From Physcia stellaris (taxonomy: Eukaryota > Ascomycota > Lecanoromycetes > Caliciales > Physciaceae): a DNA stretch of 64,000 nucleotides. The notes under the pieces were generated by a model that was given only the letters and a program-made list of their open reading frames with translations, did no database searches and was not told where the DNA came from. This document shows, in pieces, positions 1-28,210 of this stretch (position 1 is the stretch's first letter; each line of letters begins with the position of its first letter). The stretch covers positions 124,001 to 188,000 of the forward strand of contig JABSSW010000061.1 in assembly GCA_018902385.1 (NCBI GenBank). Reading direction: 5' to 3'. The translations under genes were made by a program, and so were the position numbers.

Positions 1-765
1 AAACTTTTCAAATCTTTTTGACAATTTTCAATTTCGTCATCAATTTTTGATCATCGTCATCGATACATTCGATAAATTGATATTGTGTTTTTGCGTCGAA
101 TTTTTTTTCAATGTTTTTTTCATCAAAGTTCAAATCGACGTCTCAATTTGATTTTCGAAAATCATTCGACAACAATTTCGACACATAATTTGAATCGACG
201 ATCATTCAAATTTTTCGTCGATGAGTCATTGTTTCATTAACTTGAATCATTTCTCGCAATTTTGACGAGTAAAAATATCACAAACTCGACGCGCGTTGAA
301 TTTGTTGAACTCGAAATCGTTCATGATGCGTGATATGATATGTAAATACGTAAATTTTTTCTATTTGTTGTATTGCGTGAAACATTTTCACAATCGTTCG
401 TTCACTCGTTGAATTGATGATCGAATTCGAATATGTAAAGCATTTTTACAATTTTGACGCGATTGAATCGATGAAACATCTTCATTGTTGTTTGATTTTC
501 GTGATCTCGTGATCGAGCGATTGACGCTGACAATTACAAAAAATTTATGTTAATTCGAATCTCATAATTTATTGAACGAATGTGGATGACTGTCATTGCA
601 TTACATGCAATATTATCGAAATTACGTATAGAAATAAATACAATTTGATTGCGCAAATGTTTTTAGTAGTGATCGATTTTGACACGTTTCGTTTAGTCGA
701 TCAATCAGAAATTTTGATTTTATTCGTGCTCATATTTCAATTTTTTGCCATCGTACTTTTCAACA
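1..765 (-). mobile_element. 5' end of an inverted, hypermutated Ty1/copia element (partial)
   Basis: Read on the minus strand, this stretch repeats the first ~750 bases of the copia element at 14,661-20,510: LTR, leader, then the start of gag. The gag start codon lies at 324-322, and the frame runs off the window edge interrupted by TGA codons where the other copy also has TGA. It is more heavily mutated than the other copy, with fewer surviving CpT and ApG dinucleotides, so it is probably an older insertion. The rest of the element lies outside the window, so its target-site duplication cannot be checked. Confidence 0.9.
573..765 (-). repeat. Copia LTR (5' LTR of the inverted partial element)
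   Basis: This 193-bp sequence aligns end to end, in reverse complement, with the LTRs at 14,661-14,853 and 20,318-20,510. It begins TGTTG and ends TTCA on its own strand. It keeps some positions that are mutated in the other two copies, for example a GG where both others read GA, so the three copies together indicate the ancestral bases. Confidence 0.9.
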
Positions 766-3700
766 CAATTCGACATTAATCGATAATCAAAATTCGTTGA
801 ATTCAAACATCATTTGACATCAATCAAAATTTTTTCATTTTTTTTCTGAAACATATTGTTTTTACAATAAAATTTTTTGTCATTTAAAAAATTTTTTCAT
901 TAAATGTTTTTCATGAATCGCATGAAATCGTATCGACACAAATTCAAATTGATCAATCACAATAATTTGCAAAAATCATTAAACGCAACAAAATTTCAAA
1001 ACGTGATTTTCAAATTTATGAAAAATGTACGAAACAATGTATGATCGATTGAAAAAAAAAAAATTTTGATGAATGATTTTTGCGATTATGTCAAATATGA
1101 AAAAATTTGACATTTAATTCAAATGATCGTTTCAAAATTTCGTTTGACATTAAAAAAGCAATAAATATTTTTCATAAAAGTCATAAAAATCAAATTTGAA
1201 TTTGATATGTATGCAAACATTTGAAAAATGTTTCGAAAAAAAAAAATGTTTGTTTCAAATACGTATTTCAAAATGTTGTCAATTTTTTGTCATCATCACG
1301 ATGTGATTTCAGCGATCGAAATGTTTTGTCGACGAAAATAAACATGATTCGTGAAAAACATAAACATTTGATCGAATATTTTGTATCAAAAAACAAATCG
1401 AAATTTGAAATCACAATCGAGAAAAAATCGAAAATTCAATCGCGTCTCGTCGCAATGAAAAAAATTTTATATCGTACGTTTGTCGTACAAAAATTGATTC
1501 GTTTTAAAATTCAAATTAATTGTGTACAATTTCAAAATTTAAATAAACGCATGAATACATGTAAAATCATTCGACAATGCGAATTTAATGTCACTTTAAT
1601 GAAACGATCGAAATGACACGAAAAATTAAAAAAAATATGTTTGATTTTATCAAATACATGTAAGCAAACAAATGACATTATTTTAATGATATTTTTCATA
1701 AACGTAAATTAGCGCAATTTTCGTTTTTTCGATATTTGAAATGTTTTGTCGATTTTTTTTTTTTGATCAATTCGTTTGCGTGTTTTTGTTTTTTCGTTGT
1801 CATTGAACAACATGTTTTTTTTGTCAATTTGAATTTTAATGTTATCGTCATTGATAACATCATCGTCGAGATCGTGTGAAATACGACAAAAATCAAATAA
1901 CGTCATAATTAACATGAAATCGAAAAAAAAATCGTGAAATGTTGTTTGTTCATGTTGTGTTGTTGTATCAACTTTTTGATGCGTCGTGATTTTTTTTTGA
2001 ATTTTTGATCGAATATTTTTGATTCGTGAATCGATTATAATCATTTCAATGACGTTTGAAATATCGCGTTGTTTCACAAAAACAATTTCATTGAAAATTT
2101 TAACGTTTGAAACGACATCTCGATGAATGCTCGATAAATTTTTTTTTTTTTGATTATGTTTATGAATTTTTCGATGTTTGAAAAATCGAACAGAAATTGA
2201 AATTGTTTTTTAATGAAATTTGAATTGACGAATAATGTTTTTTTTTTCGTAACGATATCGATCGATAATTGTTGTTGTTCAAAATCAATGTGAATCGCTT
2301 TTTTGCGTTTGTTGCGATTTTTTTTCATCGTTTTTTTGATTTCGTCTGTTTTAAATCATATTAATTTTTTCAAAATAATCAAAATTCGTCGATTTTGAAT
2401 TTATTTTTGATTTGTCATCGAAACAAAATTTTTTTGTATCATTTTCACACGTTTTCGAAAAACATAAAATTCAATAAATTTTTCATTCAATCGCAACAAA
2501 TTCTGTTTCGATTCGTTAATTCATGAACATTTTTTCATGTTGTTTGTTGAATTCGAAAAAGTTGAAATTGAAAAAAAAAATAAACATGAAAAAATTATTT
2601 CAATGAAATAATAACAATGATTGTGATGAATTTCATGAATGTGATGAATTTAATCGATGTGATGAATGATGTTGTAATTTCTCGTCACACATCACAAAAT
2701 TTTTGTTTTCAAATACAATTTTGTAAATCGTGTTGTGACATGAATGATTGAATGAATATGTGAAATATTGACGCAAAACAAAAATGATATATGAAAAACA
2801 AAAATTGACGAAATCGTTTGATAATCATTTGTGTCAAACGAGACGTTGCATGAAAATCAACAATTTGACTGATCATTGTTATAAAAAAACAATATCAATT
2901 TGCACGCGTAACAACAATGCGATCGTCAAACATGAAAAAACAAAAATGTGATGACAGTTGAATTTATATGAAAATGAAATATGTCAAATCATGTTGTTCG
3001 TTTTTTTAACAACGATTTCGATAATTCACGATTGTTATGTCAAATTTTGTTTTTGCATTTTATCAATAATCAATTTTCATAAATAAAGCAAAAATTTCGC
3101 GCGCGTTTGCAAATTTTTTTCGTGAACATGATATATTACGAATGATGATTAATGAACGTTTTTGAACGATATCAATAAACATGTCATTTATTTCAAATTG
3201 ATATTTTAGCGAAATTGTCAATCGAAAATTTCAGTTTAACTAAAATCGATGCGCAATGTTTGACGTAATTTAATCACGATAAAATTGTTGCGTTTATCAT
3301 CGAAATTGTATAAATTTCAATATGTTTGTCAAAATGCAACATTTCGACGAATTTCGTATAAACGATCGTCATCGAAAACAATTTGATGTCGATGAATTAT
3401 GTGAATTCAAAATTTCACAATATTTGCAAAAATTTTGATTTTAAAAAACAAACAAAAAAAACAAATCAATTTCGATTTTTTTGTTAATGATGCGAAAAAT
3501 CGTTGCAAATTCGCGAACGTTATTTTTATCGTTAAAAAAACACACGATAATTGAAATTCAAATGTTTTGTATAAATATTTTCGCGATTTGAAAATGATTT
3601 CTGTCGCAAAAATATCGTAAATTTGACGTAATATGTCAAATTGTATGTAACAGATTTTTAATGTTGTCAACGTTGCGTGCTGTGACAAATAATCAATATG

Positions 3701-6700
3701 AATAATTTTTTTCACATGAAAATCATCATTTTTTATTTGCATCATGCAAGAAAAATTATGATTTGTGCAATGTTCAAAACATTTTTGTTTTTTTGACGCA
3801 GAAATCGAATTCGTTCGCAACATTTTTTACGATTTTGATTGATGTGAATTGATTCATAAATAATGTGTCGAATACAATGTTCATGATGACAGAAATGAAA
3901 AACATTCATAAATTTGTACGATTCACATTTTAAAAAATTATCGAATTCGATTTCAATTCGAAATCATTTGTTGAATCATGTTGCGACACGAATCAAAATT
4001 GTAACATGATCGAAACGCGAATAAATCGCGCGAATGATTTTTGATAATAAATAATTATTTTTGAAAAATAATGTCATCAAATTCAACGAATTTGATTGTT
4101 TTCAATTTTCAAACAATATTGTGCAAAATTTCGAAAATTTATATTTTTTTTTTCAATCAACAAACACGAATGTGTAATATTGATCGAAATCGTTTTTGTT
4201 TGAAATCGAAAATCAATTCAAAATTTTTTGTTCAAAAATTTTTTTTGATCGTTTGATTTCGTATGTAAACATGATGTTTGCTGAATTTTTAAAAATACGC
4301 ACGATCATTGACATTGACGACGAGACATTAAAAATCGAAAAATTTAATGACGATTTATTGTAAAAATATGTCGATATTGAAATTTGAATTATCGTTGATA
4401 ACAACGATTGTGTAAATGTTGAACGCGACGACAAATGACAACACGACGAATCACGCGTCACGTTTTTTTTTCAAATTATCGAGAAAAAAAATGAAATCGA
4501 TTGTATCGTTGAAATTCGACGCGAAATCGATATAATTATGATATTGAAAATGACAAAATTGTGATGACGAATTCGTCGAGATTTGTTATCGAAAACACAC
4601 ATTACAAATGTGATATTTTGATTTTTGTGTTGATGAATGATATGTCGTTTAACGTTGTTTAAATGAATAAAAATCGCATTGCAAAAACGCTCATTATTGT
4701 TAATTTTTTTGCATTTGAAAAAATTGTTTTCATAAATTCAAAATTTGAAATTGCGTCGCGATATTTTGAACATTATGAACAAATGTTTGAGTTGATTTTG
4801 ACAATATTAAAAAACAAAATTCAATTTTTAAAAATTTGCGATATTTGTGAATAAAAACACGCAATAAAAAAAAACGAAACATTCAATTTGATTTTTTTCT
4901 TTTCATGAAATTCAAAACATGAATTTTTTTTTTTCATTCGTTTCATGATTTGAATTTCAAAAACAATGAAAACAATTTCAAAAATTTGAAACAACAAAAT
5001 ACACATGAACGAAATTGTGCAATAAATCATGTTCAAAATGAATTGACACGAATTTTCAATACGATCGAATTTGAAATGAAAATCGCATTTTTTGCGCAAA
5101 CATTTCGTATTTTTCATAATGAACATGAAAAATAAATTTTCATTTGTGATATTTTAAATTGTGAACATTGTTTACGAATGAATGATGCAAAATTTCAAAT
5201 CAACGTGTGTGAAAATTGACGTTAAAGTTTGTCAAATCGATTTGAACATATATTCGAAACAAATTTTAAAAATTCGTTCGATTGATATTTCGACGATTTT
5301 AAAAACAAAATCGCAATCACAAATGTTTCGCGATTTCGCAAACTTTTTCAAAAAACGAACGACAATTCAAAAAATTTTTTGTTGTCAATTTTCGACATAT
5401 CATTTTGTTTTAAATTGATTGAAATTTTTGTAATTGAATCGCATGATTTTGATTAAATTGCAATTCGCGATGAATATATTTTAAATTATTTTGTTTTTCA
5501 TCGTTTTTTTTTTCAAATATAGATTCGCACAATTGCTCGAAAACAATCATAATTAATTATTGTTTTTTTTTTTTTGTTTTATCAATTTTCGATTTTTTCA
5601 TTACAAAAAAATTCATTTTTGTTCGCGAACAAATCATGATGATTTTCAATCGTATTCACAAGAAAATGCGATTTCAAAAATGACGATGTTTTTATGTCGA
5701 TTTACGTATCAAACGTCGATACAACGCAATTTTCACACGCAAAAACAATCAACAACGTCACGAAAAAAAACAACATGCAAATGATTTTGTTTTCAATTTC
5801 GATTTTAAATCAAATTTTTTATTCGAAAATCATTTTCAATTATATTTTACATTTAATTTCGAACGTTTCATTGACGATTTGTTTCAATTAATAAACAATT
5901 TTGATGCGATTTCGTTAAATTTGAAAATTGCGTATTTCGTGTTTTAACAATAAAAAAATTATTTCACAATCAATTTCAACATGAAATCATTTTTTTGCGA
6001 CTCAAATCAATGAAATTGATTTTATTTCGATTTCGACAACGATCGTTGTTAATTTGCAAATTGTTTCATTTTCATCGAACATTTGTCAAAATGAAAACAA
6101 TATGAACGTAAATGAACATGACATTTTTTCAACGATGTTTATATTTGTTGATCAGAAAATTTGATCGTTCGATATTTTCGAAATTCACGCGTTTATCGAG
6201 CAAAACATAATCGTTTTCAATGACGCAAACATCATTTTTACGACAATGTTTGATTCAATTTTCGATAAAAATTTGTTTTTGAATGATATTATTTTTCAAA
6301 AATTGAACAATCAACATGCATTTGCGTTCGTTTTCATTTTTTCAATTTCGATTTTTCAAAACAAATATGTCAATGACATTTTCATGAACGAAATTTTTGT
6401 CGATTTCAAAATTTTCATCGATTTCGATGTTTTTATTGATTTCGATTTTTTTGACGTTTTCGAAATTCATAATCATTTCAATACGTTGTTTTTATCGTGA
6501 TTCGATTCAAATTTTATCGAATTCGAAACGATGCAATTAAAAAACGATTCATTCACAATTTTCGACATGACAAATCAATCGTCAATCGATTGCGCGCGTG
6601 AAATTGATCGTTCGTAACGTCGATACGAAATCATTTCAAAATTTGAATTACGATTCAATTTCAATGTAAAAATCATCGAAATCAAAATCAATCAACAACA

Positions 6701-9700
6701 CAATTTGAAAATACGTTTAATCGTTGAATTGACGACAGCATTTCAAACAACTTTTGAGTTTTTCGAAAACGATAACAACATTGCATAATGAAAAAATTAT
6801 CAAAAATCGATTCGTCGACGTTTTAATTGAATTAACAATTTTAAATAATAATTTAAAATGTCATATCGATTTGTAAAAGTAAATTGAAAATATTTGTGAA
6901 AAAAATGAAAAAAATGAAAAAAATGAAATGCTTGAACGATTTGTTTTTTCGATTTTTTTCAACGATTTTTTTCATGTAAAATAAATTGAATAATAATTAC
7001 ATTTGATCAATAACATTTTTATCAAAATTCGAAAAATCACATACATGTCATTTAATTCGAGAACTTTTTGACATCATTTTAAATTTAACAAAACATTTCA
7101 TTACTTCACAGAATTTTTTGTGATTGAATTCAATCAAACATGTATTGAAAACAGTTGATTCGTGATCATCATCGCAAATGTCAAAAAAACAAATCAATGA
7201 ACGCAAAAAAAAACATTGAAAAATTTTGCAAAAGATTTGATAAAAACTTGATATGAACACATTCAAAAAATAATTTCTGTAATGATTTCATAAACGATAT
7301 TGTATTAAAAAACGAAATTGCGACATTTTTATTATATTGAATATAATGCGATTGAGTTGATCATTAATTTTTCACGCATACAAGAAAATTGATACGTACA
7401 GTAATCACACAAGATAAAACGAAAACGTAAAAAATCGAATCGAAATTATTCAAAATTTTCGATAACGCAATTTTTCAACACATTCATTCAATAAACACGA
7501 AAATTCTAAATTAATATCATATACAATGAAAAATCGAACAAATGTTAAAACATGTCAAATGCGATTCAAATGATTGATTTTTTCGATTTTTATTTGAACA
7601 TGATTCGAATTTCACAATTTCAACAACAATTTTCATCAAAAAATATTTAAATGAAAATTTCGAATTTTGATGCGATTTTGATTCACGATTAAAACAAATT
7701 TCGATTTCAACATACAATTGATTATCGAATGATGAACGTTTTAATTAACATGATCATATGTTTGTCATTTTTGAATACGCGATAAAAAAAATGAATTTTC
7801 GTGCGTTCTTGTCGTCAAATTTTGAATTTATTTTTTTCAATGAATTTGCATTCATGTGAAAAAAATTTGAATCGCATTTTTTCATTGTTTTTTATAATTT
7901 GACGATAACATTTTCGATTCGTGAATTTTCATTGTTCAATGATTTTTCGAAATTCGTAAAATAACAACGACATCGAATGTTTTTTGAACGATTAAATTTT
8001 TTTTTTGATAAATTGTTTCGTATTATCGAAATTCACAACAGCGTTATTTATTCGTTCGATTTGTCGATCGAAATTGAATTTTATTTTAACATGAAAATTG
8101 ATAAATTGATTTTTTGTACGACGTATATTTTGATCAATTTTATTGAAATTTTTATAAACATTGATCAATACAACGTAAATCGCTTTTCGAATATAATCGA
8201 AATTTTTCAAAAATATCAATTGCGATTCGTAATCGACTATGTCAATGAAAAAACGAAAAATTTTATATTTTGCATTTTTCGAACGTAAACGTTGTTGAAT
8301 TAATTTGATTTTTTTAAATGTCAATCAATGAATTTTTTTGAAATCATTTTGCAATTTTAAGAAAAATATATCAATTTTTTTGTCTTTTGCGTCGAAATTA
8401 ATCAATTTTTTAAAAAAAATATCGAAATATTGAAATTATATGTGACGATGTTTTTTTATCAAATCATTTGAATTTGCGACAAATTTATCATAAAATTTAA
8501 TTAATAAAAATATATAAATTTCAAATCAATGATAAAATTTTTATTGTCACGTGAAAATAAATAAATCATCGAAAATGTTTTTGATTTCGTAGAAAATTTC
8601 GTCGATCAATTCGATCAATTCGAATGTGAAAAATTGCAATTCATCGTTGACATTGCGTTTTTCAATCAAAAATAACGAAATTTCGTTGATAAATTGAATT
8701 TTGCAGAAAAAATCGCTGTGAACGATTAAAAATTCGAAAAATGTCAAATTAGTGTGCAAATGTTCAAACATTTGCGATAAAATTAATGTTGTTTCATTTT
8801 TTTTATCAGTTTTGACAAATTGATCAGAAATTTTCACGACGACTTTCATGTCAACAATGTTTTCAAAAAAACAAAAATCGATCATTCACGATGTTTTCGA
8901 AATAACACATATGAAATTTTGATAAATATTCGAACATATCGATTGAAATTCAACATAAAATATCAAACATACGACGAAATTAATGCACAACACAAAATAT
9001 TGAAAAAATAATATCGTTTTCAATTTCATGAACGCGATTTTAATTTTCGAAAATGTTTCGAATTTTTTGTTACGAAAAAAAAATCAATAACGTTGTGTCG
9101 TTTGACAGAATTTTGCAACATCATCGTCAATTGAATGTGTCATCGAAATGTTTGCGATTGAAAAATTGATATTGATGAAAATTTTTTCGCGTGTTGATAA
9201 TTTTCGTGATTGATTTTCTGAAATGAAATTGAATTCGACAAATGATGTATCAATGACGTTTAATGACGAATTTCGATCATTTATGCGATCGACATGAATG
9301 TTTGCGATGTCGATCAATTCAATGCTTGTATTATGAAATGACATCGAAAAATCATTTTGCGATGAAAACGATTCGATTTTTTCATTGATTGAAGCTTTTT
9401 TCAATGCGTATAGAATTGTGTTATCATTTTCACGTGTCATATGCAAATCGTAAATACGATCGATGAAAATTTTCGTTGTTAAATCGCGATTGCGACGTTG
9501 TTGATTCAAAACGATATCAATCGAATCATTTTCGTTTACGTTTTTTGAAAAAATTTTTGACAAATTTTTCATTGACATTTTTTGTTGAAAAAAATAAATC
9601 AAAATCAAATTTTGAAAATAAACGCAAATGAAAAATTTTTTATGATCAATTTCATCGAAAAAATCATTGAAATCGAATTGAACGAAAAAATGTTCGATGT

Positions 9701-13760: not shown

Positions 13761-14524
13761 TCGTTTCATTCGTATTTTTCATTTTTTTTTGTCAGATTTT
13801 TTTTTTTCATTTTTTCATGATAAACACAAATGAAAAACGATTGTCAATATTTGTAATTATGTGTAATGACGAATCGAATTTTTGTTCGACGTGAAACATT
13901 GATAATGAATGAACGAAAATGCATAATGATGTTTGCGTCAATAATAATGATTGTTTATGACAACAACAAAAAATTGATTTGAAAAATTTTTTGTGTTGTT
14001 CGTTGTTTGAAAAATTGCGCATCGAATTTTTTTTTGAAAATGATATATTGAATAAATTTCAAAAACAAAAAAAAATTTGAATGCAAAATTTCGTTTTTTG
14101 AAATTATCGATTACGTGTGTTTTTAAAAAATTTTAACGTTTATTTGTTTCGTTGATGTCAAAATATCGAATTAAAAATTAATCAAATTGTTAAACGAAAT
14201 TTTTGAATAAAAATTGATAATGACGTAAAAAATTCAAAATTGACAATTAAAATCGTGTCATTTTCGTTGTGATTGATGTGAAATGTGATTCGTGTAATTT
14301 GTGTCGTTGATTTTTGATGTCGAAATTTGCGACGTGAAAATGATATTCAAATGTAACATAACGAAAATTTTGTGATTTAAATTGACAACGATATTATAAA
14401 AAATGTCGAAACAAATGATTTCAATTTTGTTAATTTTTATTATGAAACGTTCAATGATGCAAATTGAAAAAAAATTCATTTTTATCATACATCGCGTTGT
14501 TTATAAAAATATGATTTTTTTTCA

Positions 14525-14655
14525 ATTTGTTCAATTTTTTCGTTTCAATTTTTTCATTTTCGTTTTTTCGTTTTCATTTTTTCGTTTTCATTTTTTCGTT
14601 TTCGCTTTTTCGTTTTCGTTTTTTCGTTTTTGTTTTTTCGTTTTCGTTTTTTTTA
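14525..14655 (+). repeat. TTTTCGTTTTC-type simple repeat
   Basis: A run of alternating TTTTTTCG and TTTTCA/TTTTCG blocks abuts the 5' LTR of the copia element. A closely similar run occurs at 27,592-27,752 and a complementary AAAACG run at 24,141-24,220. It probably arose from a pyrimidine-rich tract whose CpY dinucleotides were converted, leaving only the C of CpG and CpA. Confidence 0.8.
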
Positions 14656-14660
14656 CTTCT

Positions 14661-14853
14661 TGTTGGAAAGTACGATGACAGAAGACTGAAATATGAACAC
14701 GAATAGAATCAAGACTTCTGATTGATCGACTAAACGAGACGTGTCAAGATCGATCACTATTAAAAACATTTGCGCAATCAACATGTATTTACTTTTGTAC
14801 GTAACTTCGATAGTATTGCATGCAATGCAATGACAGTCACTCACATTCGTTCA
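14661..14853 (+). repeat. 5' LTR of copia element
   Basis: Starts TGTTG and ends TTCA. It differs from the 3' LTR at 15 of 193 positions, with no indels. All 15 are C/T or G/A transitions with C followed by a pyrimidine, or G preceded by a purine. Confidence 0.92.
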
Positions 14854-15078
14854 ATAAATTATGAGATTCGAATTAGCATAAACTTTCTGTGACTGTCAGC
14901 GTCAATCGTTCGATCACGAAGTCACGAGAATCAAACAGCTGTGAAGAGAACTCATCGTTCGATCGCGTTAAAACAGTAAAAAGAATTTACACGACTCGAT
15001 CGACAACTTCACGAAAAAGCACACGGCAATAGAAAAAATCTACATTCGAATACATACTTACATATCACATCACGCATC
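14854..15078 (+). other. Copia leader with possible half-tRNA primer site
   Basis: This is the untranslated leader between the 5' LTR and the gag start. Directly after the LTR, ATTATGAGA (about 14,857-14,865) is complementary to a Met-tRNA anticodon loop of type UCUCAUAAU. That would fit the internal (half-tRNA) priming known for some copia elements. No 3'-end TGG primer site is seen, although TGG could have mutated to TGA. The same sequence follows the LTR in the inverted copy. Confidence 0.4.
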
Positions 15079-16093
15079 ATGAACGATTTCGAAATCAGCA
15101 AATTCAACGCGCGTCGAGTCTGCGATATTTTTACTCGTCAAAACTGCGAGAAATGATTCAAATTAATGAAACAATGACTCATCGACGAAGAAATCTGAAT
15201 GATCGTCGACTCAAATTATGTGTCGAAACTGTTGTCGAATGATTTTCGAAAATCAAAATGAAATGTCGATTTGAATTTTGATGAGAAAAAAACTGAAAAG
15301 AAATTCGACGCAAAAGCACAATATCAATTCATCGAATGTATCGATGACGATAATCAAAAATTGATGACGAAACTGAAAATTGTCAAAAAAATTTGAAAAG
15401 CTTTTGTCAACAAATACAAACAAAAGTTTGCTACAATTGAACGACAGTTGTTGCAAGAATTCATGAACTACAAAAAATTTCCAAACGTGATCATTGAGAT
15501 CGTCTATATCGATATCATCAAAAAAAATCGCAAAGTTGCAAGCATGCAATCAGACATGACGAATCTGTTCAAATCAAAACGTCGTTTTCAAACACTTTTA
15601 GCATTTTTGTTTGTCGAATACGATGTCATTCGTGATGCAATCGACGCACAAAACAATCTCGATGTCGATAAATCTATTCAAAAATTGCAAAAAAAAAAGA
15701 CACAATTCATTGCAAACAAAATCGTCGAATCGACATTGATGATCAAAAACAATCGTCGTCAATTTTATCGCATATCTCAACGACGATTCTTCAACTTCGA
15801 CGAAAATTCTCGTCGTTTCAAAATTAAAACGAAAAAAACGAGATGTTTTTTTTGCGATAATTCACATCGAATCGCAAAATGTGATTTTCTGAAAAAATTA
15901 AAAAAGTGAGCGAAAAAACAGAAAATCAAAAAATTTTTACGTAAAAATAAAAAGCACAAAACGTACAACGTCGTCGATTTTTTCTCGTTCAACAACAATT
16001 CAAATTTCGACATCGACATCGATTCAGACAATGAGAAGCACATGAAGAAAATCGTCGTTCTATTCAAAGAGTTGATCAATAAATTTCTCAAGT
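15079..16093 (+). pseudogene. gag: Copia gag remnant with zinc knuckle
   Basis: The frame opens at ATG 15,079 and is broken by several TGA codons, the first in a Glu-Lys-stop-Phe-Lys context where copia Gag normally has Trp. A long open stretch follows from about 15,430 to 15,906. The nucleocapsid knuckle CFFCDNSHRIAKC (CX2CX3HX4C) lies at about 15,843-15,881, close to the plant/fungal gag form with Gly-Pro before the His. The frame continues past a TGA at 15,907 through a Lys-rich linker into the protease. Only one Pro and no Gly remain in the open part, the expected result of losing CCN and GGN codons. Confidence 0.85.
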
Positions 16094-19000
16094 TTGTATG
16101 AATTGCAAATATCGATGTTTCGTCACATGATTGACGATCTTCGACTCTTTAGTGAATTTCTCAAATCGATTAAAAGACGCACGATCAAGATCGAAAAAAG
16201 AAAATTGTATTCAAATCAATGTGATTCAATGACGATGCGAATCAAAAATGATGAAAACACGTTAACGAAAGTGCTTTATGTATTTGATTTCGACGTCAAT
16301 TTTCTATTCGACAGACATTTTATCAAGAAGAAATTGATAAAAAATTTCAATGACAATAGTTTGTTCATGCGCAATAAGCAAAACGTTGAAATATTTCGAA
16401 CATTCGCTCAAAAAGATGTTTACATAATAAACAAAATCACATCAAAGTTTAAAAAATACGCATTGTTAACGAGCAACACGATGTCTGCAATTGAATTTTT
16501 TAAAATTTTGTTTGTTTCATTTGCAATGTCAACAATCGTGAACTCGAACGATATTTTGCTCGATGCAAATATTGACTCTCGAAATGATATCGAGATCGAT
16601 TTTCAATCATTGAATGTTGACTCAAATATTGATTCAGATGTTGATTCAAATATTGATTCAAATGTTGATTCAAATATTGATTCAAATGTTGATCAAAAGA
16701 GACGTGATTTATACGAGTTATGACATCGACGTTTTGATCATATGAAATTTGCAAAATTTCGAAATTTGCACAAAATCACAACTTTACGCAAGTCAATATT
16801 CATTGTTGAAAATCGCAACGATTCATGCAAAATATGTGCGATTACGAAAATGATTAATGCACATAATCGTCGTTTAATCGAACGCAAAACTCACATATTG
16901 AAATTGATATTTATCGATATTTGTGAATTTTTATTCGTTTCAAGACTCGACTACGAATATTTTTTGAAAATCGTGAATAATCATTTTCGACGAACATGAA
17001 TTTTATTTTTTCGCAAACGATCTGATGCATCAAAAACTTTTAACAAATGAAAACTGAAAATGAAGTTAGAAATTCAACGAAAACTACAAGTCGTACGTTG
17101 TGACAACGTCAAAGAATTAAAATCTATACTCGATTTTTGATGCGAATCTATCGACATTGTTTCACAATACATCGTTTCGTACAATTTCATTCAGAACGAC
17201 GTAATAGAGCGTGTCATAAAAACGTTCGAAAATCAAATTCGAACAATGACTCAAAACGCAAAACTGCTCATAGAATTTTGATTTGAAACAAAGAAGACAA
17301 ATGCATACGTTCGCAATCGTATGAACACGAAATCAATAATCGACGACAATTCAACAAGTTTTATTGAAATTTGAACAAATATTAAATCGTCGATAAATCA
17401 CATACGCGTTTGAAAGTGCAAATGTTATTCGCTCGTCGATATTAAATCATTGTTTGAAAAAAGTAAAAAGAACAAATTCGTCAATACAAAAAAATCAAAT
17501 GTGTTTATGAATTATGACGAAAACATCACGACTCAATACAAGATATGAATTCTCGATCGTCGTGATGTCATCAAGTATCACAAAATAATGTTTCTTGAAC
17601 ATGAAAAATGAAAAAGCGAATCATTGAATTTGCTCACGATTACGATGAACGAATTATCTGAAAGACGATTTGTCGAAAAATCACGCAAAATAGTTTTTGC
17701 ATTTGCAGTCGTTTCGATGACATCGACGTTTACATCAATTTTTGTTGCATCAATTTTTGCGAAATTTTCGATCTTTGTTGCGTCTATGATTTCGAAGAAC
17801 GAGAAAAAAATTCAATCAATGCACATGAAAAAAACGATGAATTCATCGATACATCAAATGAAAAAAATGAAATCAACGAGTTTACGACGAAATCAACAAT
17901 TCAAACGCGTGCTAAATTAACATTTTTCACGAAATCTTCACGCATGATGCAGCAATTTTTTCACGTGACAATTTCTAAACGTAAGCGAGATACTACGAAC
18001 GAGAAAAAACGAAATGAACATCGCAACAAAATTGCACGCGTCATGATGACATTTCTAATCGAAAATTTTGATACGTGCGAGCACGATGAGTGAGCTTTGT
18101 TCGCAACAACAGAGAATACAAATCGACAATTCGTTGAAAAGTTGATCATATTTGTGCTCGAGAACTATCAGAAGATTGTCAATGATTTCATTTGAGATAA
18201 ATTCTGATTCGAGACTATTCAGATCGAATTGACGACGTTAATAATTAATGAGATTTGAAACGTCGTCATTTCATCGAAGAACGTCAATATCGTCATCAGT
18301 AAATGAGTATTCAAAATCAAAATGCATGTGAATGATACGTTGAACAAATTGAAAATCAAATTCGTTGCAAAAGATTTCTCGCAAATATATGAAATAAATT
18401 ATACAAATATCTTTGTTTCAATTGTTAAATTCGATATTTTTCGCTTGTTTTTCGTCATCGTCGCGTTGAAAAATCTCGAATGTCATTAAATGAACGTCAA
18501 CAATGTTTTCACGAAGTCATTTTTAAAAAGATAATTTACATGAAATCGTCATTCGACGTGAATTTATCTCTCGAACAAACATTTCTGATTCGTCGAAATT
18601 TTTATGAATTGAAACAAACAGCTAGAGATTGACACGAGCGTTGCGTGAAAAAACTGCATAAATTGAGTTTCGAACAAATTTCGATTGATTTTTGCATGTT
18701 TCGTCATAAGAAACGAGAAATCATATTGCTTTTTACGTGAACGACATTTCTGTTGTCGTCAAATTCAACGAGCAAGTCAATTGATTCAAAGATGAGTTCA
18801 AAAAGATATTCAAAGTCAAGAATTTGAGAAAAATGAAGAAAATTTTTGACATTAGAATCATTCGCGATCGTAAAAGACGAATTATTCGATTGAATCAAAC
18901 TTATTATTTGAGCGAGATATTGAATGAATTGCATATGAATATCGATAAACACGAACGTACGAAATTACTCATGAACGATTACGATTCACTCAAATCAACT

Positions 19001-19774
19001 GAATCGAACGACGAGCGAATTGACTCAAAAAATTATCAACACAAAATTGAAAAGTTCATGTATGTTGTCATACACATTCGTTCAAATATCGTCTTCGCAT
19101 TAGAACGATTAAATCAATATCTCAGTGATTTTGCGAAACATCACGATAGAGCAATGAAAATTTTGCTTCGTTATATTCGATCGATCATCGATCTAAATCT
19201 TGTATACGATTTGAAACTGAACAACAATGAAAATTTCAAAATCAAAATTTATTCGAATTTTGATTACGCAATCGATAAATTAAACAGAAAATCGATTTTC
19301 GAATACGTTTACATGTTCGCTGAAAAATCAATATCGTGAATGAGTCGTAAACAGAAATCGATCGCTATTTCAATCACTGAAATCGAATATATGATTTTAT
19401 CGACATGCGTTAAAGAAAAATTATGAATAACACAATTTTTTCGTGATCTGAATCTCATCAAATATCTTGAAATCGAACTGAATCAAATAGCAATCATTCA
19501 AAACGATAAACATGAAATTTGCTCATCAATGCAATTTTTGAAAAATAATCAAATCGCTAATTTGTTGATCAAAGACGCACATATTCATGAACGATCAAAA
19601 CACATTGATGTGATTTATCACAACATCAGAAATTTGCATCAAAAAAATTTGATTCAATTGAATTACGTTTCAAATGCAAACATGATAGTCGATGATTTGA
19701 CTAAATCACTGTCAAAAAATAAATTCAAGAGATTCGTGAAGCAGTTGAAATTGAAAAAATCGAAAATCAATTAA
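16094..19774 (+). pseudogene. pol: Copia pol remnant: protease, integrase, RT, RNase H
   Basis: The protease active-site region is split by a frameshift near 16,115-16,122. A pre-integrase segment follows, then the integrase zinc domain (HRRF...H...CKICAITKM, 16,724-16,860) and core (to about 17,900). The RT begins near 18,350. Its catalytic box reads YVND at 18,734-18,745 instead of YVDD, a GpG to GpA change. The RNase H region holds IRIIRDRKRR at 18,856-18,885, an altered ADYAGD-like block near 19,255, and the terminal KHIDVIYHNIR at 19,598-19,630. Trp positions read TGA throughout. It is not functional, but all copia domains are present in order. Confidence 0.88.
16608..16696 (+). repeat. 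15-bp tandem repeat in pol, encoding (D-S-N-I/V)n
   Basis: GATTCAAATATT and GATTCAAATGTT alternate about six times, coding an Asp-Ser-Asn-Ile/Val-rich linker between the pre-integrase segment and the integrase zinc domain. Confidence 0.85.
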
Positions 19775-19821
19775 ATTTTTTCAATAATCAAAACTGTTTC
19801 TTTCATGCTAACGTGTTGATG

Positions 19822-20215
19822 ATTCAATCGTACACATCTGACGAGTCATGATCGAAAACAAGAATTCGTTGATCGTGCTCGAGCTCGAGTTGCATGATGA
19901 TTCAAAATGATTTTCTTTGAAGTCATTCGAATCTAATTCTCTGATCAGAAAGAGTCAGTGTTTCTCTTGTTAATATTAAAAAGTTCGAGAGCTTAGTGAG
20001 AGTTACGTCATTTCTTTCATTCTGAAACGATGATGACTCGATTGTACGAATCTGACAAACTATGACTGAAGACAGAAGCTCGTTGATCGTGCTCAGACTC
20101 GAGTTGCATGATGATTCAGAATGACTTTTTCCGAAATCAATTTTTCTGATCAAAGAGATTCAGTGTTTTTCATCAATGAACGTAGAAATTGAAGCTCAGT
20201 GAAAGCTACATCGCT
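19822..20215 (+). repeat. Direct duplication (~190 bp, period ~214) in copia 3' noncoding region
   Basis: Two imperfect copies carry the same landmarks in the same order: CGTTGATCGTGCTC (19,867 and 20,081), GAGTTGCATGATGATTCA, CTGATCA and CAGTGTTT. Their differences are mostly C/T and G/A transitions. They lie between the end of pol and the 3' LTR and have no coding potential. Confidence 0.8.
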
Positions 20216-20316
20216 ACACGAATTAGCACTCAGTGAAAGTCACAATCAATGCAAAAATTGAAACTCAGTGAAAATCGCATTCACGAGTGCAATGAACATG
20301 ATTGTCATCAGTGAAA
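20190..20316 (+). repeat. ~35-bp tandem repeat, CTCAGTGAAA core
   Basis: The motif CTCAGTGAAAGTCAC or a close variant recurs near 20,194, 20,230, 20,264 and (as TCAGTGAAAATG) 20,308, just upstream of the 3' LTR. A further variant, CTTAGTGAGAGTTAC, lies near 19,991. The last unit overlaps the place of the polypurine tract that would prime plus-strand synthesis. Confidence 0.7.
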
Positions 20317-20317
20317 A

Positions 20318-20510
20318 TGTTGAAAAGTACGATGACAGAAAATTGAAATATGAACACGAATAGAATCAGAATTTTTGATTGATCGATTAAACGAGACGTG
20401 TCAAAATCGATCATTACTAAAAACATTTGCGCAATCAACATGTACTTACTTTTGTACGTAATTTCGATAGTATTGCATGCAATGCAATGACAATCATTCA
20501 CATTCGTTCA
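20318..20510 (+). repeat. 3' LTR of copia element
   Basis: It starts TGTTG and ends TTCA, 193 bp, collinear with the 5' LTR. Compared with that copy it is the mutated member at most of the differing CpT, ApG and GpG sites. Confidence 0.92.
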
Positions 20511-23500
20511 ATATTTTTTTGAATTTGAAACACGTTTTGAAAAATCGACATTGTCATTGTTTTTTTTAATTTGATTAATTTCAAAAAATGTATTGAAATT
20601 TGTTTTTTTCGAAAAACGTGCATATTCGAAAAATGTGTTTTTTTTTTCAAAAAATGTGCAAATTGAAAAATTTAAAAATCGAATGAAAAATTTTCAATTT
20701 TATTTTAAATATCGTTTGTTCATTTTTTTTATTTGTCAATTAAATTATCGAATTTTTTGTATTTTTTTTTGTCATTTTACATTTCTCAATATTTTGTCAA
20801 ATAAAATTTTCATTTTTGCATATCGAATTTTTTTGCATTTTTCATTTCGACAATTCAAACATTTACAAACATGAATTTGAATTATGAAATACGCGATGTT
20901 TCAACAAATCATGACATTATTATGAAATATTTTGTCGTTATTTTTCAACAACGTTGTCGTTTCATGTGAAACGAAAAACAAAATTTGATTTTTCAAAATT
21001 ATGTCAACAATAATCAAATTCGCAAAAAAATTGTTAAAAATTTCGATTTCGACTTTTTTTATTTTTTGTTGAAATTTGATATTTATCATGAAATTATCAA
21101 CGAAAACGAAATTCAAATCGTCAATATTATTCGATTTAAAATTATCGACAAATTGCATAAAATCATCAACAAAATGAAAATAAATGAAAAATATTTCAAA
21201 ACGTTCGTTATTATGAACATTAAATTAATCAAATTTAACGATAATTTTATATTTTTTACGTCGACATTATCGTCAATTGATTTAAAATCAAAACAAAAAT
21301 TTAAATTTTTTTATTATAATGTAAACTTTGCGAATTCACAAAGATTTGTGATTTTTTTTGTCATTATTCATTGTTATTCATTCAAGTTTTAATATTTTTT
21401 TCATGCGATATACATTACAAATTATGAATTTCAAATTTGTCACATGTTTCATTTTGAATATTTTGTTGATTAACGACATACGTAAAATTCAAAAAAATTA
21501 ATTTTCTCATTCGTTTTTTCACGATTTCAATTTTTTCATTTCAATTTTTCAAATTTTCATTTTTATTTTTTCGTTTGCAAATATCGAAAACAAACAACAC
21601 GACATGAAAAAAAAATTGTTTCGAAAACAAATTGTCAAATTTGAAATTCAAATTCAAAAACATAACATATTGCAACAACATTCGAATTTAAAACGACAAA
21701 AAAATGAATTGCAAACACACAAAAACATAATAAAAAATTAATATCAACGAACATTAAAAAATCAACAAATTCAACACGCAAACAATACAATGCGTACGTT
21801 ACAAAAACAAAAAATTCAACATGAAAAAAATGCGATGTTTTTTTTGAAAACGCAAAAAAAAAAATTATGATTGAAATTGAATTTCAAAAAATCGAAATCG
21901 CGATATTAAAAAAACAATTACGTCGAAACGAAATGAAAAAAATTTAAAATAAAAAATTTTACACAATAACATCAATTCAAATTTTCATTGATTGTATCAA
22001 TGCAATTCAATTTACGATTTTTTTTGCAACATTTTTCGTTGCGATATTTTTCATTGTTTCATTTTCAAAATTCGATTTTTATGTTTATTCGTTTTCGCAT
22101 CGTCGTCAACATTCGATTATTGAAATTACGATCACATTTGCAATTTTTGTTTTTCGCGTCGAAATTCATGTTGAACATTTATTACAATCGAAATTCGTTT
22201 ACGCGTCAATCGAACATTACGACACATTTGAAATTTTTGAAATCGATAATTACAAATTTAATAAAAATGTTCATTTATTTGAAATTTATGATACAAAAAA
22301 CTTTTTTTCAATCACAAATCGTCGTCATGTTATCGAAATTTTCAAATTTTCGAAAAAAACATCAAATGTTCAATCGAACAAATTTTATTATCAATATCGT
22401 CAACAAAACGTTCAACGAAATTATCGTCAATCAAATCAATTTCGCGATCATTCAAATTCGATCGATATTTTTTCATTTCAACGATTTGTTCAATTTGATT
22501 CGCAAAATCGACGAATTTCGCATGATGACAACATTGATTTTTATTTTCAACAACAAAATTGTATAAAGTTGATTCAAAAAATCGTTGCGCGAAATAAAAA
22601 AATAAAACGTTTCAAAATCATGATGCGAAAAAACGAACAACTTTTGTTTCAAAAACAAAAAAATGTTTTAAAATTGATGCAACGAACATGAATTATAATC
22701 ACATAAATTGAAATCACGAATTTAAAACATGATTTTGATAGAATTTTTTTTTATTGAAATATCAAATTGTTGATTTTAAAAAATTACATAAATTTCATGT
22801 TGAATTTGTTTTTGTTAATTTTTAAATTGCATGCACGTCATTTTTATTTTTTGTTTTTCGAATTTCGTCATCGTTTTTATTGAAAAAACGATGTTGATTG
22901 ATATTTTGATCAAATAATATCGTTATAACAATTAACATTAATTTTGCATCATCGCAAATCACACAAATTTACAACACAATAACGTTTTGTATTTCAATCG
23001 TCGCAAATAATAAAATTTCGAAAATTATGTGTTATTTAACACAAACATGTCAAACAATTTAAATTTGATAATTGAAAAAATTGATTAAATGTTAAAACGA
23101 AACAATGCGTGACGCGAATCGTTTTTCAAATCGATTTTTGATTTGTTTTTTCAATTTTTGAACGTTTCGTGTTGACTTTCAATTGACAATATTTTTGTAT
23201 TGTTGTTCAATCAAATTTTTTTCATTTCGTTTTGTTTTTTTAACAAAATGATCGTCGTTATGTTCATTCAATTGATCAATATTTCGTTTTTGTTTGTCAA
23301 TTGTTTTATTATCAAATTTATTCGCGATTTTCGATTCGAAATTCGCGTTGATTGAAAAATGAAAATTTTGCGATTTGTCAATCAATGTTTTTTTTAATAC
23401 AAAAAATGATTTTTCAATTGATTTATCAATCAAATCATTCAACATGTTTCAAATTTTTTTCATTTTATTATCGACATAACGTTTAATGAACATTTCATGA

Positions 23501-24140
23501 AATTTGATTAAATGATAAATAACAATTTTGTCATAAAATTTTTTCGTTTTCGTTTTGTCATGATCAAAAATGATTTTGTATTGTGTGTTTTTCGCAAAAA
23601 ACATGAATGCAAACTTTTCACGTATTGATTGCATGTTTTTGTTTTTTTTGCGATTTTTAAACATGAATCAAATTTTACTGTTTAAATCGAAATTTTTTTG
23701 AAAAATTTCAAACAATCGAAAAATCAAAACGTGATTGTTTTGCGATCATGCAATTTTTCGAATATGATTTTTTTTATTGAAATTATCGTAATCGTTATGT
23801 TTTGACAAAAAAATTTCTGTATCAAAATCAATTTAAAAATCAAAAAAAAAAATTTACGAAAATTCTGTATTTGTAATTTGTTATTTTGAATTTTTGTTAC
23901 ATTTGAATGAATTGTGAAAATGTTTTATGCATGTTTTCAACACAACAAATTTTGTTTTATGTCAAAAAAAATATGTTTTCAACACAACAAAACGTGTTGC
24001 GTGTCAAATTCGTCATGACGCGAAAAAAAAAACGACGACGAAATTCATCAAACGAAATTCATCAAATTTCGAATATATCGAAACGACGATTGTTAATCAA
24101 CGAAATGATAAAAATCGAAATCGAAAACGTGATCAATCAC

Positions 24141-24175
24141 GAAATGAACGAAACGAACGAAACGAACGAAAAAAA

Positions 24176-24209
<34 letters not shown>

Positions 24210-24220
24210 AAAAAAAACAA
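24141..24220 (+). repeat. GAAAC/GAAAAC simple repeat
   Basis: GAAACGAA units grade into (GAAAAC)n. In one frame this reads as a Lys-Arg run and in another as Lys-Thr. It is the complement type of the TTTTCG runs elsewhere in the AT-rich block. Confidence 0.8.
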
Positions 24221-24994
24221 ATCAAATACAACAAGTTTCGAATTTTACAACAAAAAAATTGCAAAAAAAAACTTTTTAAATTTTGTTAATTATCGACATT
24301 TTCAAAAATCATTTTTTTTGTTCGAGATTCAATTTTTTCATGTATCAAAAAAAAATTCGAACAATATCGTTTGATTGTTTAACATTTGTCTCAAAATATG
24401 ATTACACAAATTTTTTTTCATGATTATTTTATAACTTGTTGCATTTTCAACACGATGAATATCGTTTTTCAATATTTCGAATTTAAAATTTTCGTCTTTT
24501 CGTCGATCATTCAATTTGCGTATTTGTGATCGAAAATCGATTTTTTTTTTTTGCGAATTCATTTCTCGTTTGTCGTTTTGTCGTTTCAAATTTCAAAACG
24601 AAAATGTCGAATTTTCAATTCATTTATTGAAGTTTTTCGAATTTCAATAATTATTTTCAATTGAATATATTTAATCACAAAATAATTCAAAAATTGAAAA
24701 TTTTCGAATCAAATTTGAAACGAAAATTTTGAAAAAAATGAAACGTTGCGTGAAAAAATTATTATATCGTTTTCATGACGTTTGCGATTTGAAAACGACG
24801 AAAAAAAATGTTCGTTATAAATATTGTCATTTGTTTTCAAATTAATGAAAAAATTTATACGCATAGAAATTTTTGTCATTTTTGATTTGTTTCACATTTT
24901 TTTTCAAATCGTTGTTTTTGAGCATTTGAATTATTTCATTTTCATTTTGATCATTTTTTTTCTTTTTCGTCGACGAAAATGAAATCAAAAAAAA

Positions 24995-25110
24995 CATGAA
25001 AATTGATGTTAATGACATTACAATTTTATCAAACAAAAATCGAATTGTTTCGTGAAAAAATTGATGTTGATGACATCACAACTTTATCAAACAAAAACAA
25101 AATTGTTTTT
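24995..25110 (+). repeat. ~60-bp direct repeat, two copies
   Basis: AATTGATGTTRATGACATYACAA followed by YTTTATCAAACAAAAA occurs at about 24,998 and 25,059. The copies differ by transitions, here including one CpA to TpA type change as well as CpT to TpT. Confidence 0.7.
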
Positions 25111-25168
25111 GAAAAATTGAATTTCGAAATTGAAATTGTTTGTTTGCGTTTTCATTTTCATCGTTGAA

Positions 25169-25341
25169 TCATTGCATCATTTAATTGATATGTACAAAGT
25201 CGAATTTCGTTACAATTCAAACGATTTTTCATTGTTCGAATTTCGTGAAACGTCGTTATTTCATTGCATCATTTAATTGATATGTACAGAGTCGAATCTC
25301 GTTGCAATTCAAACGATTTTTCATTGTTCGAATTTCGTGAA
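25169..25341 (+). repeat. 81-bp direct repeat, period 92
   Basis: Copies at 25,169-25,249 and 25,261-25,341 start TCATTGCATCATTTAATTGA and end TTCGTGAA. The second copy keeps ApG, CpT and TpGpC (CAGAG, CTCG, GTTGC) where the first reads CAAAG, TTCG and GTTAC. Confidence 0.8.
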
Positions 25342-25719
25342 CGATGTAATCAATGAATTTGTCAACAACGAGCGAAAAAATCAAAAAATCAACGATGTCA
25401 TGTTATTGAACGTCAAATTTCACGACAAAAATGTTTGCGTTGTTCGATTATCGATTCAAAAAAATCAAAATGCGAACAAAAACAAAGAAATTTGCATTGC
25501 AAATCGATTTTTGACGTTCGTTCAAAAATAAATAAAATCGTCATTCGATCGAATAACGATGAAATATTGAAATGAAAAACGAATAAATACATATTCAAAA
25601 CGACATTTTGCATTTTCTTTTGATAATGCACGATCATTGAAATTTTTACATTGTGAATTGAATTTTAATTTTACAATCATTTCGTTTCATATTTTCGAAT
25701 CAAACTTTCAATCATAAGC

Positions 25720-25935
25720 ATTGTCAATATTGTCATTCTACAAAAATCGACTTTTGTCTATACAGCAATGACGAACAGCGATAATAATTGTGACGATGAC
25801 AAAAAAATTAATCAAAATGAAACGAAAAGTATTGAGACAAATCATGAAATTGAAAAAACTGTGAGTTCTAAAGACTTTATTGCAACATTCGTGATCAAAC
25901 TGTTAAACATGAATTAAAGAATTCTCTTTGCGTCA
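25720..25935. other. Less mutated patch in the AT-rich block
   Basis: About 200 bp keeps a normal share of CpT, ApG and CpC-type dinucleotides (for example GTCTATACAGC, GAGTTCTAAAGACTTT, AATTCTCTTTGCGTCAGC). It is flanked by fully converted sequence on both sides. A short frame inside (ATG near 25,768) has no recognisable match. Confidence 0.55.
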
Positions 25936-27146
25936 GCGACGACATTATTTTTTCACAATCGAATCATTCGAAAAATCGTTTGATCGAAATTTTTGATCGC
26001 GAAACATTTGATCGAATTAATCGAACACGTACTTTATGTTCAATATTTGTGTACAATGTTGTATTGTCAAAAAATGATCAACAACGCGTTTTTGATTGAT
26101 TTCGTTATTCGACGAAACAAACATTCGACAAAGAATACGTCAAATTGTTTGTTCAATGAAAAAAAATTTTTTTTCAACATGAAAACAATTGCGTTTTTTT
26201 ATTTTCAATTCGTCAATCGAATTTTTTAATTTTTCGCGCAATTGATCACAACATTTTTTTCGTTCGAATTTTAATATGATTTCATGACAAAATTTGATTC
26301 AAAAAAAACGTGAAATTGAACAATTTTTTTGATTGCGACTCATATCAATTTATGAAAATTTTTCATTTATGTCATTATAATCGTTGTTTGATTCATGTCA
26401 TTTACGAATTTACAAACAACATGAAAAATCGAAAAATTTGTTTTCAATCGACGAAATATTTACGATGTCAAAATTTGAACATATTTGATCGTTGTAATTA
26501 ACATAATTCATTTTGTTTGTTACAAATAAACAATTCGAATGTGTCATTGATCGAAATTTCGCTTATTTGACAACATGTTATTTTGATTTTTGTGAAAACA
26601 TATTTCATACAATTAAACATTTTTTTTCGTGCGAAATATTTTGAATTCGAATCATTTTTTGATAAATTTGCATTTCATTCATATTTTATTTTTGAAACAC
26701 AATTATTTTTGTGTTGAAAAATTTTTGAATTCGTCATAAACGTGAATTCGAATCATTTGATTCACGAATTTTCGAATTTTGTCATCGCGAAAAAATTCGC
26801 GTTGTTATGCAAATTCTGTCGTGAATCAAATCGTTTTGCAATTATTTTCGAATTATGAAATTACATCGTTCACGAACATCAAAATGTCGACGTTCAACAA
26901 CGTTTAAAAAAAATCAAACAAACGACATCATTTTGACAATTTTATTGAAAACATTTGATTCAAAACAGAAAAAATTTCACAATTAACATGTTGACACAAA
27001 TTCGTTTTGACGAATTTTGTTGAAAAAATGTTATTGCATGAAAATTGCGTTAAATAAAATCAAACAAAAATGAACACAAAAACAAATGAAAAACGAAATA
27101 ATGAATTTTTTATGTGACGATTAATAAAAATAACAATAAATATCAC

Positions 27147-27240
27147 GTAACGACAAATCAAAATGACAAATAACGACAAAAAACATGTAACGACAAAACA
27201 CATTTAACGACAAATCAAAATAACAATAACGAAAAATTAC
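27147..27240 (+). repeat. TAACGACAAA tandem repeat
   Basis: TAACGACAAA occurs at about 27,148, 27,171, 27,188 and 27,205, with related AATAACAATAACG spacers. The spacing is irregular, so this is a decayed minisatellite. Confidence 0.65.
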
Positions 27241-27523
27241 ATTTTTTCATTCAAAATTGTGATCATTTCGAATAATGAAAAAAAATGTTCGTTTCAAATT
27301 CGACAAATCGCTTCGAAACAATAAACAAATAAATTTTTCACAATACATTTCAATCATTTTCACATATTTTTCAGTCATTTTCGAAAACGAAAATTTTATG
27401 AAATATAAATCGTATTCAGAACAATTTGCAAAAAATTCGAAAAACGAAAAATTCAAAAAAAATGATCATGATTCATTCGCATTTTTTTTGTTTAAAATCA
27501 ATTTCGAAATTTTTGCGATCGTG

Positions 27524-27554
<31 letters not shown>

Positions 27555-27591
27555 CGATTTTGACATCATCGCAAACGATTATAATGAAAAT

Positions 27592-27752
27592 TTTTCGTTT
27601 TTATTTTCGTTTTTTCGTTTTTATTTTCGTTTTTTCGTTTCATTTTCGTTTTTTCGTTTTCATTTTCGTTTTTTCGTTTTTATTTTCGATTTTTCGCTTT
27701 CATTTTCGTTTTCTCGTTTTCATTTTCGTTTTTTCGTTTTTATTTTCGTTTT
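27592..27752 (+). repeat. TTTTCGTTTTNATTTTCG simple repeat
   Basis: About 160 bp of alternating TTTTTTCG and TTTTYATTTTCG units, the same type as 14,525-14,655. In one frame it reads as alternating Phe, Arg, His and Val, a purely compositional ORF. Confidence 0.8.
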
Positions 27753-28210
27753 CAAATTCAGAAATTATCGTTTCATTCAAAACGACGATTTTAACGATTT
27801 TGTTTGTTCAACAACGATTGAATCAAATATTTCACGCGTTCAAAAAACTGATCAAACGTATAAAAATCAAATTTCGAATGTTAAATTTCAGCAATAAAAT
27901 TAACATGTAATTTCATGTAACAATATAATCATTCGTTTTGATTATCGTTTCGTTTTATTTTTTTTTTTCGTTTTTTATTTCAACATTTACGAATTTCATT
28001 GCGTGATAGTATCAAACGCACGTTGAATCGTGTCAAAAATATGCGTTTAAAAATCAAAACACGATTAACAATTCAAACACGAAAACGAAAAAAAATGAAT
28101 CGTCGATGAAAATCGAAAACGAAAATCGAAAACGAATTTTTGCGAAATACGATTTCGTCGTAAATTGTGACGTTACGATTCGATTTTTCGATGAAACGAC
28201 AAATTTAAAA

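Follow-up and report, generated by a model that had tools for sequence, protein, structure and literature searches.

RIP-like cytosine-to-thymine mutation before pyrimidines as the probable origin of AT-rich repeated DNA in Physcia stellaris

Repeat-induced point mutation (RIP) of fungi acts between fertilisation and meiosis, requires a methyltransferase of the RID family and usually, but not universally, prefers cytosines in CpA. Here, we analysed a stretch of 64,000 nucleotides of the Physcia stellaris genome (assembly GCA_018902385.1, contig JABSSW010000061.1, positions 124,001 to 188,000), hereafter called the window, the first 28,210 nucleotides of which form an AT-rich island nearly devoid of CpC and CpT. 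We conclude, with a confidence of about 70%, that repeated DNA in this fungus has been hypermutated by a RIP-like process that changes C to T on both strands before a pyrimidine (CpY), in the order CpC > CpT >> CpG and CpA.

For RIP of Neurospora, the order of preference is given as CpA > CpT > CpG > CpC (PMC5496416). The pattern in P. stellaris resembles that of Neurospora crassa in that dense C-to-T changes on both strands affect dispersed repeats and leave an AT-rich product, and in that RID-like and DIM-2-like genes are found in the genome, but it differs in the order of targets and in the lack of a rise in TpA. Mutation at CpC and the sparing of CpA stand out more than mutation at CpT, because CpT<->TpT ranked above CpA<->TpA in a RIPCAL analysis of Neurospora Tad1 copies (PMC2621366). 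In addition, RIPCAL alignments place CpT-to-TpT first in control fungi of PMC7882544, and CpT ranks among the main targets in Magnaporthe, Botrytis and Sclerotinia (PMC4352252), Colletotrichum truncatum (PMC6180176) and Anisogramma anomala (PMC10998396). In Magnaporthe, Botrytis, Sclerotinia and Anisogramma, however, CpT goes with CpA, which is nearly spared here. In C. truncatum, some families are mutated at CpA, some at CpT and some at both, and those of the CpT type show (CpA+TpG)/(ApC+GpT) values of 0.08-0.12 compared to 1.52 in the island (PMC6180176). CpC as a word is absent from the main text of these last three papers (PMC4352252, PMC6180176, PMC10998396). The RIP-like mutation of Microbotryum likewise has a target other than CpA, but this target, CpG, is nearly spared in P. 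stellaris (PMC2621366, PMC4352252), and RIP of Trichoderma reesei has a shifted preference in crosses, with CpA and CpG about equal and CpC last (PMC5496416). The closest parallels met for the CpC part are Stagonospora, where CpC is among the depleted dinucleotides and RIP is led by CpA (PMC2621366), and Monilinia, where CpC-to-TpT double changes occur beside classical CpA-led RIP (PMC8959702). Having screened the k-mers of 1,239 species, Badet and Croll (2025) held a preference for CpA to be common to RIP-like defences (PMC12543289), a conclusion to which the present fungus would be an exception. A search of PMC11969663 for context terms found none, and our literature search, for which most subscription papers were out of reach, met no description of a CpC-first or CpY-only RIP. 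The novel points are the first rank of CpC and the near sparing of CpA, since CpT is already a major target in other fungi.

Composition and extent of the AT-rich islands

At positions 1 to 28,210 of the window (GC content 0.26), CC and GG occur 6 and 3 times (observed over expected (o/e) 0.01 for both) and CT and AG 274 and 301 times (o/e 0.20 and 0.22), with CA at 1966 (1.42), TG at 1868 (1.38), CG at 1500 (3.08) and TA at 1353 (0.35). The normal gene-bearing DNA at positions 28,500 to 56,800 (GC content 0.49), which served as internal control, contains 1640 CC, 1585 GG, 1814 CT, 1976 AG, 2007 CA, 1879 TG, 1435 CG and 1356 TA. CC and GG together number 9 in the island versus 3225 in the control, and CA, TG, CG and TA are less than 5% apart between the two regions, the lengths of which are nearly equal. 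This is the pattern expected if the island was once ordinary DNA in which almost all changes turned C into T, on either strand, where a pyrimidine followed. The counts are the opposite of a CpC and CpT depletion no stronger than that of CpA.

The near-elimination of CpC and CpT, and of ApG and GpG, that an earlier note had claimed from the letters of the sequence holds for CpC throughout the island, every NCC trinucleotide being at 1% or less of its normal count. For CpT, the claim fails at about 14,500 to 20,500, where the loss is only partial (o/e 0.39-0.61 in the three 2-kb windows that cover 14,001 to 20,000, CpC being almost gone there as elsewhere), so that CpC and CpT are unequal targets. 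The base 3' of the T has only a mild influence on how much CpT is left. The island proposed by the same note is real and near saturation except at about 14.5-20.5 kb, but its limits had to be revised: it reaches about 28,500, the last 300 bp being softer (28,211 to 28,499: 1 CC, 1 GG, 10 CT and 5 AG), and it begins to the left of the window, because positions 1 to 768 belong to a repeat copy that starts outside. A second CpY-depleted island lies at about 57,000 to 60,800 (1 CC or GG; CpY/TpY index 0.020).

In simulations, the window's normal DNA (28,600 to 56,700) was mutated under several rules and compared with the island dinucleotides by total-variation distance. With rates set by hand or taken from a coarse grid, and with the normal DNA as a mere proxy for the ancestor, a rule of fast CpC and slower CpT mutation gave a distance of 0.006 and a GC content of 0.261, compared to 0.30 for the unmutated DNA. 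The distances for the other rules were 0.39 (CpA), 0.33 (CpG), 0.21 (CpA+CpT), 0.13 (CpT only), 0.22 (CpC only) and 0.20 (any C). When rates were fitted on a coarse grid to 14,000 bases, the best solution had no mutation at CpA or CpG.

The genome examined comprises 43.97 Mb in 147 contigs. Along the window's own contig (C61), islands and normal DNA alternate, and the edges within the window are sharp to about 300 bp, which argues against foreign or contaminating DNA. At 20 spaced points of 2.5 kb each on other contigs, 6 were AT-rich (95% interval 12-54%), all with a CC o/e of at most 0.01 and a CA o/e of at least 1.22. We further divided the window and 40 loci fetched by place into 304 windows of 1 kb, of which 6 of intermediate GC content were set aside; this set is not random, as contig C61 supplied the window itself and 15 of these loci. 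A CpY index below 0.25 was found in 100 of 101 windows with a GC content below 0.35, the lone exception being the first kilobase of locus L020, and in 0 of 197 windows with a GC content of at least 0.43. In the DNA sampled, the signature, for which the earlier note had proposed a genome-wide scan, is present and is confined to AT-rich DNA.

The standard RIP indices, which that note had also put forward as a check, did not detect this mutation. At thresholds of TpA/ApT >=0.89 and (CpA+TpG)/(ApC+GpT) <=1.03, none of the 101 AT-rich windows passed both, none passed the former and 2 passed the latter; the values for positions 1 to 28,210 are 0.37 and 1.52, respectively. RIPCAL also defines CpC and CpT indices, which are off by default (PMC2621366) and which would detect the present pattern.

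Direction, context and speed of the changes

The direction of the changes was determined on copies with intact relatives. Three stop-free RVT_2 fragments of normal composition, L051 (C8:902437), L052 (C42:398640) and L054 (C7:889944), which are three of the four stop-free RVT_2 matches in the genome, form one family, L051 and L052 being 99% identical to each other and L054 89-90% identical to both. A genome search with L051 gave 34 matches, namely these three and 31 more distant relatives (68-84% identity), two of which, L055 and L056, were polarised. Scoring was done at the sites at which L051, L052 and L054 agree, a choice that somewhat lowers the count of other changes. In L055, C had changed to T at 39 of 41 CpC, 57 of 77 CpT, 1 of 78 CpA and 4 of 62 CpG sites, and 3 of 322 T/A sites had changed. 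The respective values for L056 are 36/41, 36/76, 7/77 and 3/62, with 7 of 319 T/A sites changed. CpY was preferred over CpA and CpG (Fisher's P of 3e-42 for L055 and 2e-21 for L056), and CpC over CpT (P of 0.005 and 2e-5). The strands were affected equally, with CpY changes at 50/59 and 46/59 sites in L055 and at 36/57 and 36/59 sites in L056. Polarised in this way against intact relatives, the two copies rule out DNA that is AT-rich by nature.

The mutation was fast relative to other divergence, because 96 CpY changes stand against 8 others in L055; by arithmetic on the site counts, the CpY rate exceeds that of all other sites about 100 times in L055 and about 25 times in L056.

The same context was found when mutated copies were compared with each other. 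In six copia copies, aligned over 5 kb, no invariant C column precedes C or T, whereas 384 precede A and 384 precede G. With L047, the most divergent of the six, left out, pairwise comparisons gave 2100 C/T versus 339 C/C at CpT (86%) and 16 C/T versus 0 C/C at CpC. Runs tests for strand-wise clustering, which might reveal single episodes of mutation (18 tests, one-sided and uncorrected), gave P <0.05 in four cases: L047 plus strand (<0.001) and minus strand (0.012), L048 plus strand (0.044) and L056 plus strand (0.040). The claim that C turns into T on both strands wherever a pyrimidine follows was borne out by composition, simulation, the two polarised copies, strand counts and comparisons between copies, and CpA, which had been described as spared, is nearly but not wholly so.

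Enzymes of the APOBEC type read the base 5' of the cytosine. An AID/APOBEC-like deaminase that edits retrotransposon cDNA or single-stranded DNA might draw on one of the eight matches to the deaminase family PF00383 in the genome, a general family to which common metabolic and tRNA enzymes also belong. We consider such editing very improbable, as it would affect one strand of a cDNA whereas both are affected equally here, and as the context is set by the 3' base and hardly by the 5' base (0.77 for ACT, 0.79 for TCT and 0.70 for GCT; 3/10 for CCT).

It is hardly credible either that ordinary RIP struck every CpN and that CpA alone was then repaired or mutated back: nothing was found in favour of this, TpA is not raised in the island (1353 versus 1356 in the control), the CpA cytosines of the intact copies were kept in 77/78 cases in L055 and 69/77 in L056, and CpC is first among the targets rather than last. 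A mutator with another neighbour rule, the other possibility raised in the earlier note, fits better, because CpC, which is put last for Neurospora (PMC5496416), takes the first place here.

Retrotransposons in the mutated DNA

The block of partly kept CpT in the island coincides with a retrotransposon copy on the plus strand at 14,501 to 20,500, in which CpC is almost gone and for which the repeat alignment runs from 14,661 to at least 20,009. It was assigned to the Ty1/copia type because of two RVT_2 pieces and weaker Pol_BBD, gag_pre-integrase and SH3 remnants, all on the plus strand. The RVT_2 pieces, at 18,247 to 18,486 and 18,725 to 18,937, have E values of 4.7e-6 and 3.9e-7 (below cut-off) and reach 36.8 and 33.6 bits in a six-frame search (above cut-off). 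The remnants of Pol_BBD (PF22936, 16,121 to 16,321, E 4.9e-4, TGA read as X), gag_pre-integrs (PF13976, 16,700 to 16,852, E 3e-4) and SH3_retrovirus (PF25597, 17,378 to 17,608, E 2.5e-4) are below the curated cut-offs. A 2-kb piece of the element has 40 matches in the genome including itself, 31 of which span at least 1,900 of the 2,000 bases; the mutation is present in dispersed retrotransposons. The block is bounded inside near-saturated DNA, as would be expected if the element had inserted later and had then been mutated in its turn. Copies of one repeat family differ in the amount of CpT left, and this variation, together with the shift in level in a block that matches the element, makes it extremely improbable that methylated CpY cytosines were misread as T in the assembly. 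Such an artefact would also need a miscall on both strands at nearly every CpC.

Positions 1 to 768 (minus strand) are the end of another copy of the element's repeat family, which lies mostly to the left of the window. It is 95.7% identical to L050, and the 768 aligned sites contain 27 CpY and 5 CpA/CpG transition differences and no transversion. This comparison bears on the possibility that 5-methylcytosine at methylated CpY in silent DNA deaminates spontaneously and slowly, which would need no dedicated mutator. In line with it, three of six pairs, which have 7-10% transversions, obey the same rule. In these pairs, CpA and CpG are both at about 0.3, which looks like general ageing of the remaining cytosines, and the persistence of the rule among them implies that the process has lasted. 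Slow deamination is nevertheless very improbable: it has to account for 27 CpY differences without a transversion in 768 sites and, in L055, for 96 CpY changes against 5 at CpA or CpG and 3 at T/A sites, and CpY would need the 100-fold or 25-fold rates calculated above.

TGG to TGA is the sole stop that the CpY rule produces directly. No reading frame of at least 250 codons exists at 1 to 28,210 in the standard code; reading through TGA yields 11 such frames, through TAG 0 and through TAA 1. Genome-wide, 137 RVT_2 matches contain 401 TGA, 101 TAA and 3 TAG stops, 4 matches being stop-free, and the 150 scored of 527 candidate RVT_1 matches contain 250 TGA, 33 TAA and 3 TAG stops, 10 being stop-free; these counts are not independent, because some elements yield two matches. 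The TAA stops can be a product of slower CpA change.

Two RVT_1 matches, at C5:1166521 and C12:60312, score 134.2 bits each in open frames of more than 1,000 codons and possibly represent another recently active element family. The island further contains about 8 tandem copies of a 20-base unit at 27,591 to 27,752 and, on the minus strand at 3,736 to 4,806, a remnant of zf-His_Me_endon (PF05551; E 1.6e-5, 25.6 bits at a cut-off of 27). In normal DNA, a 34-base unit forms a perfect two-copy tandem repeat at 63,835 to 63,902.

Candidate enzymes and relation to RIP

The RID- and DIM-2-type methyltransferases for which the earlier note had suggested a test were sought by a genome profile search with PF00145, which gave four matches in three genes, L001, L002 and L003. 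L002 is DIM-2-like, as its residues 220-905 of 1009 match PDB 9bap (E 2e-181), an entry listed only as DNA (cytosine-5-)-methyltransferase which we take to be Neurospora DIM-2. L001 and L003 both carry a C5-methyltransferase domain (PF00145) with a PPCQ motif. Their identity to each other is 40% across a catalytic stretch of 174 residues and 34% across an N-terminal block of 149 residues. The ENV motif of most C5-methyltransferases is replaced by EET in L001 and by EQT in L003, and an EQT-type motif at this position presumably marks RID. We regard the two as putative diverged RID/Masc1-like paralogs in one genome, a label based on the Pfam domain, motifs and the similarity of the two to each other. 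They appear to share an intron position, because a stop follows the same conserved stretch in both; L001 has a second stop or intron-like site further on. None of the three genes looks mutated, because all loci are normal in composition (GC content 0.50-0.52). The eight PF00383 matches are indistinguishable here from ordinary deaminases. The best match to the cytidine-deaminase family, at C64:178666-179121, contains four in-frame TGA, for which an intron or a mutated copy is possible.

The hypermutation might run through DIM-2 and heterochromatin instead of RID: DIM-2 would methylate the contexts that it favours within silent chromatin, and the methylcytosines would become T. The presence of L002 and the CpT preference given for Neurospora DIM-2 (PMC13297926) are in favour of this route; the strongest target here, however, is CpC rather than CpT, and DIM-2 is listed for all CpN contexts (PMC13297926) whereas CpA is almost spared in P. 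stellaris. We regard this route as possible but rather unlikely.

The RIP-like character claimed at the outset is supported by the confinement to AT-rich DNA with dispersed retrotransposons and by the RID/Masc1-like and DIM-2-like genes. C:G to T:A transitions on both strands, a hallmark of RIP, are present in L055 and L056, and the usual preference for CpA is lacking in composition, polarised copies and copia pairs alike. As to a direction at repeated DNA, dispersed retroelement families lie in the mutated islands, which were scored together with any single-copy DNA that they hold, yet three intact, similar copia copies are not hypermutated. The process works like RIP; full membership would entail a repeat trigger, sexual timing and a need for RID.

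Several observations weigh against a RIP-like process that acts on repeats before pyrimidines, in addition to the choice of scored sites and the basis of the RID label. L051, L052 and L054 keep normal CC, GG, CT and AG although they are repeated, so that repetition is no present guarantee of mutation; the copies may have transposed since mutation last took place, or else the strain may have lost the process or keep it only as a rare event. Even so, 3 of 7 internal substitutions between L051 and L052 are at CpY. There is a minor CpA/CpG component, as in the 7 of 77 CpA sites of L056, and among the five copia copies C/T is found at 13% of CpA and 8% of CpG sites versus 0.9% transversions. Finally, the 10 RVT_1 matches without stops include two of equal score, on C5 and C12.

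In the mechanism that we favour, repetition would trigger the mutator, which by analogy with RIP may act in the sexual phase, and the enzyme behind it would be a RID/Masc1-type cytosine methyltransferase whose target preference has shifted. One of the two diverged RID-like paralogs would be the first candidate for this enzyme and DIM-2 the second. For transposons, the effect of the mutation is the loss of Gly and Pro codons and the conversion of TGG to TGA.

At even odds, in our view, the process forms a distinct branch of fungal repeat-directed mutation, with an enzyme, possibly a specialised RID-family paralog, that reads a 3' pyrimidine and takes CpC first. Such a mutator readily escapes notice, as the customary RIP indices score a loss of CpA and a gain of TpA. 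The two in common use can fail to flag a genome even when mutation of this kind saturates its AT-rich DNA. If such a branch exists, other fungi scored as RIP-negative by the usual indices may also carry a CpY mutator. For the question of how RIP selects its target cytosines, the reversed preference in P. stellaris, with CpC moved from last to first and CpA nearly spared, would provide a natural contrast from which to learn what sets the context, with two RID-like genes as candidates.

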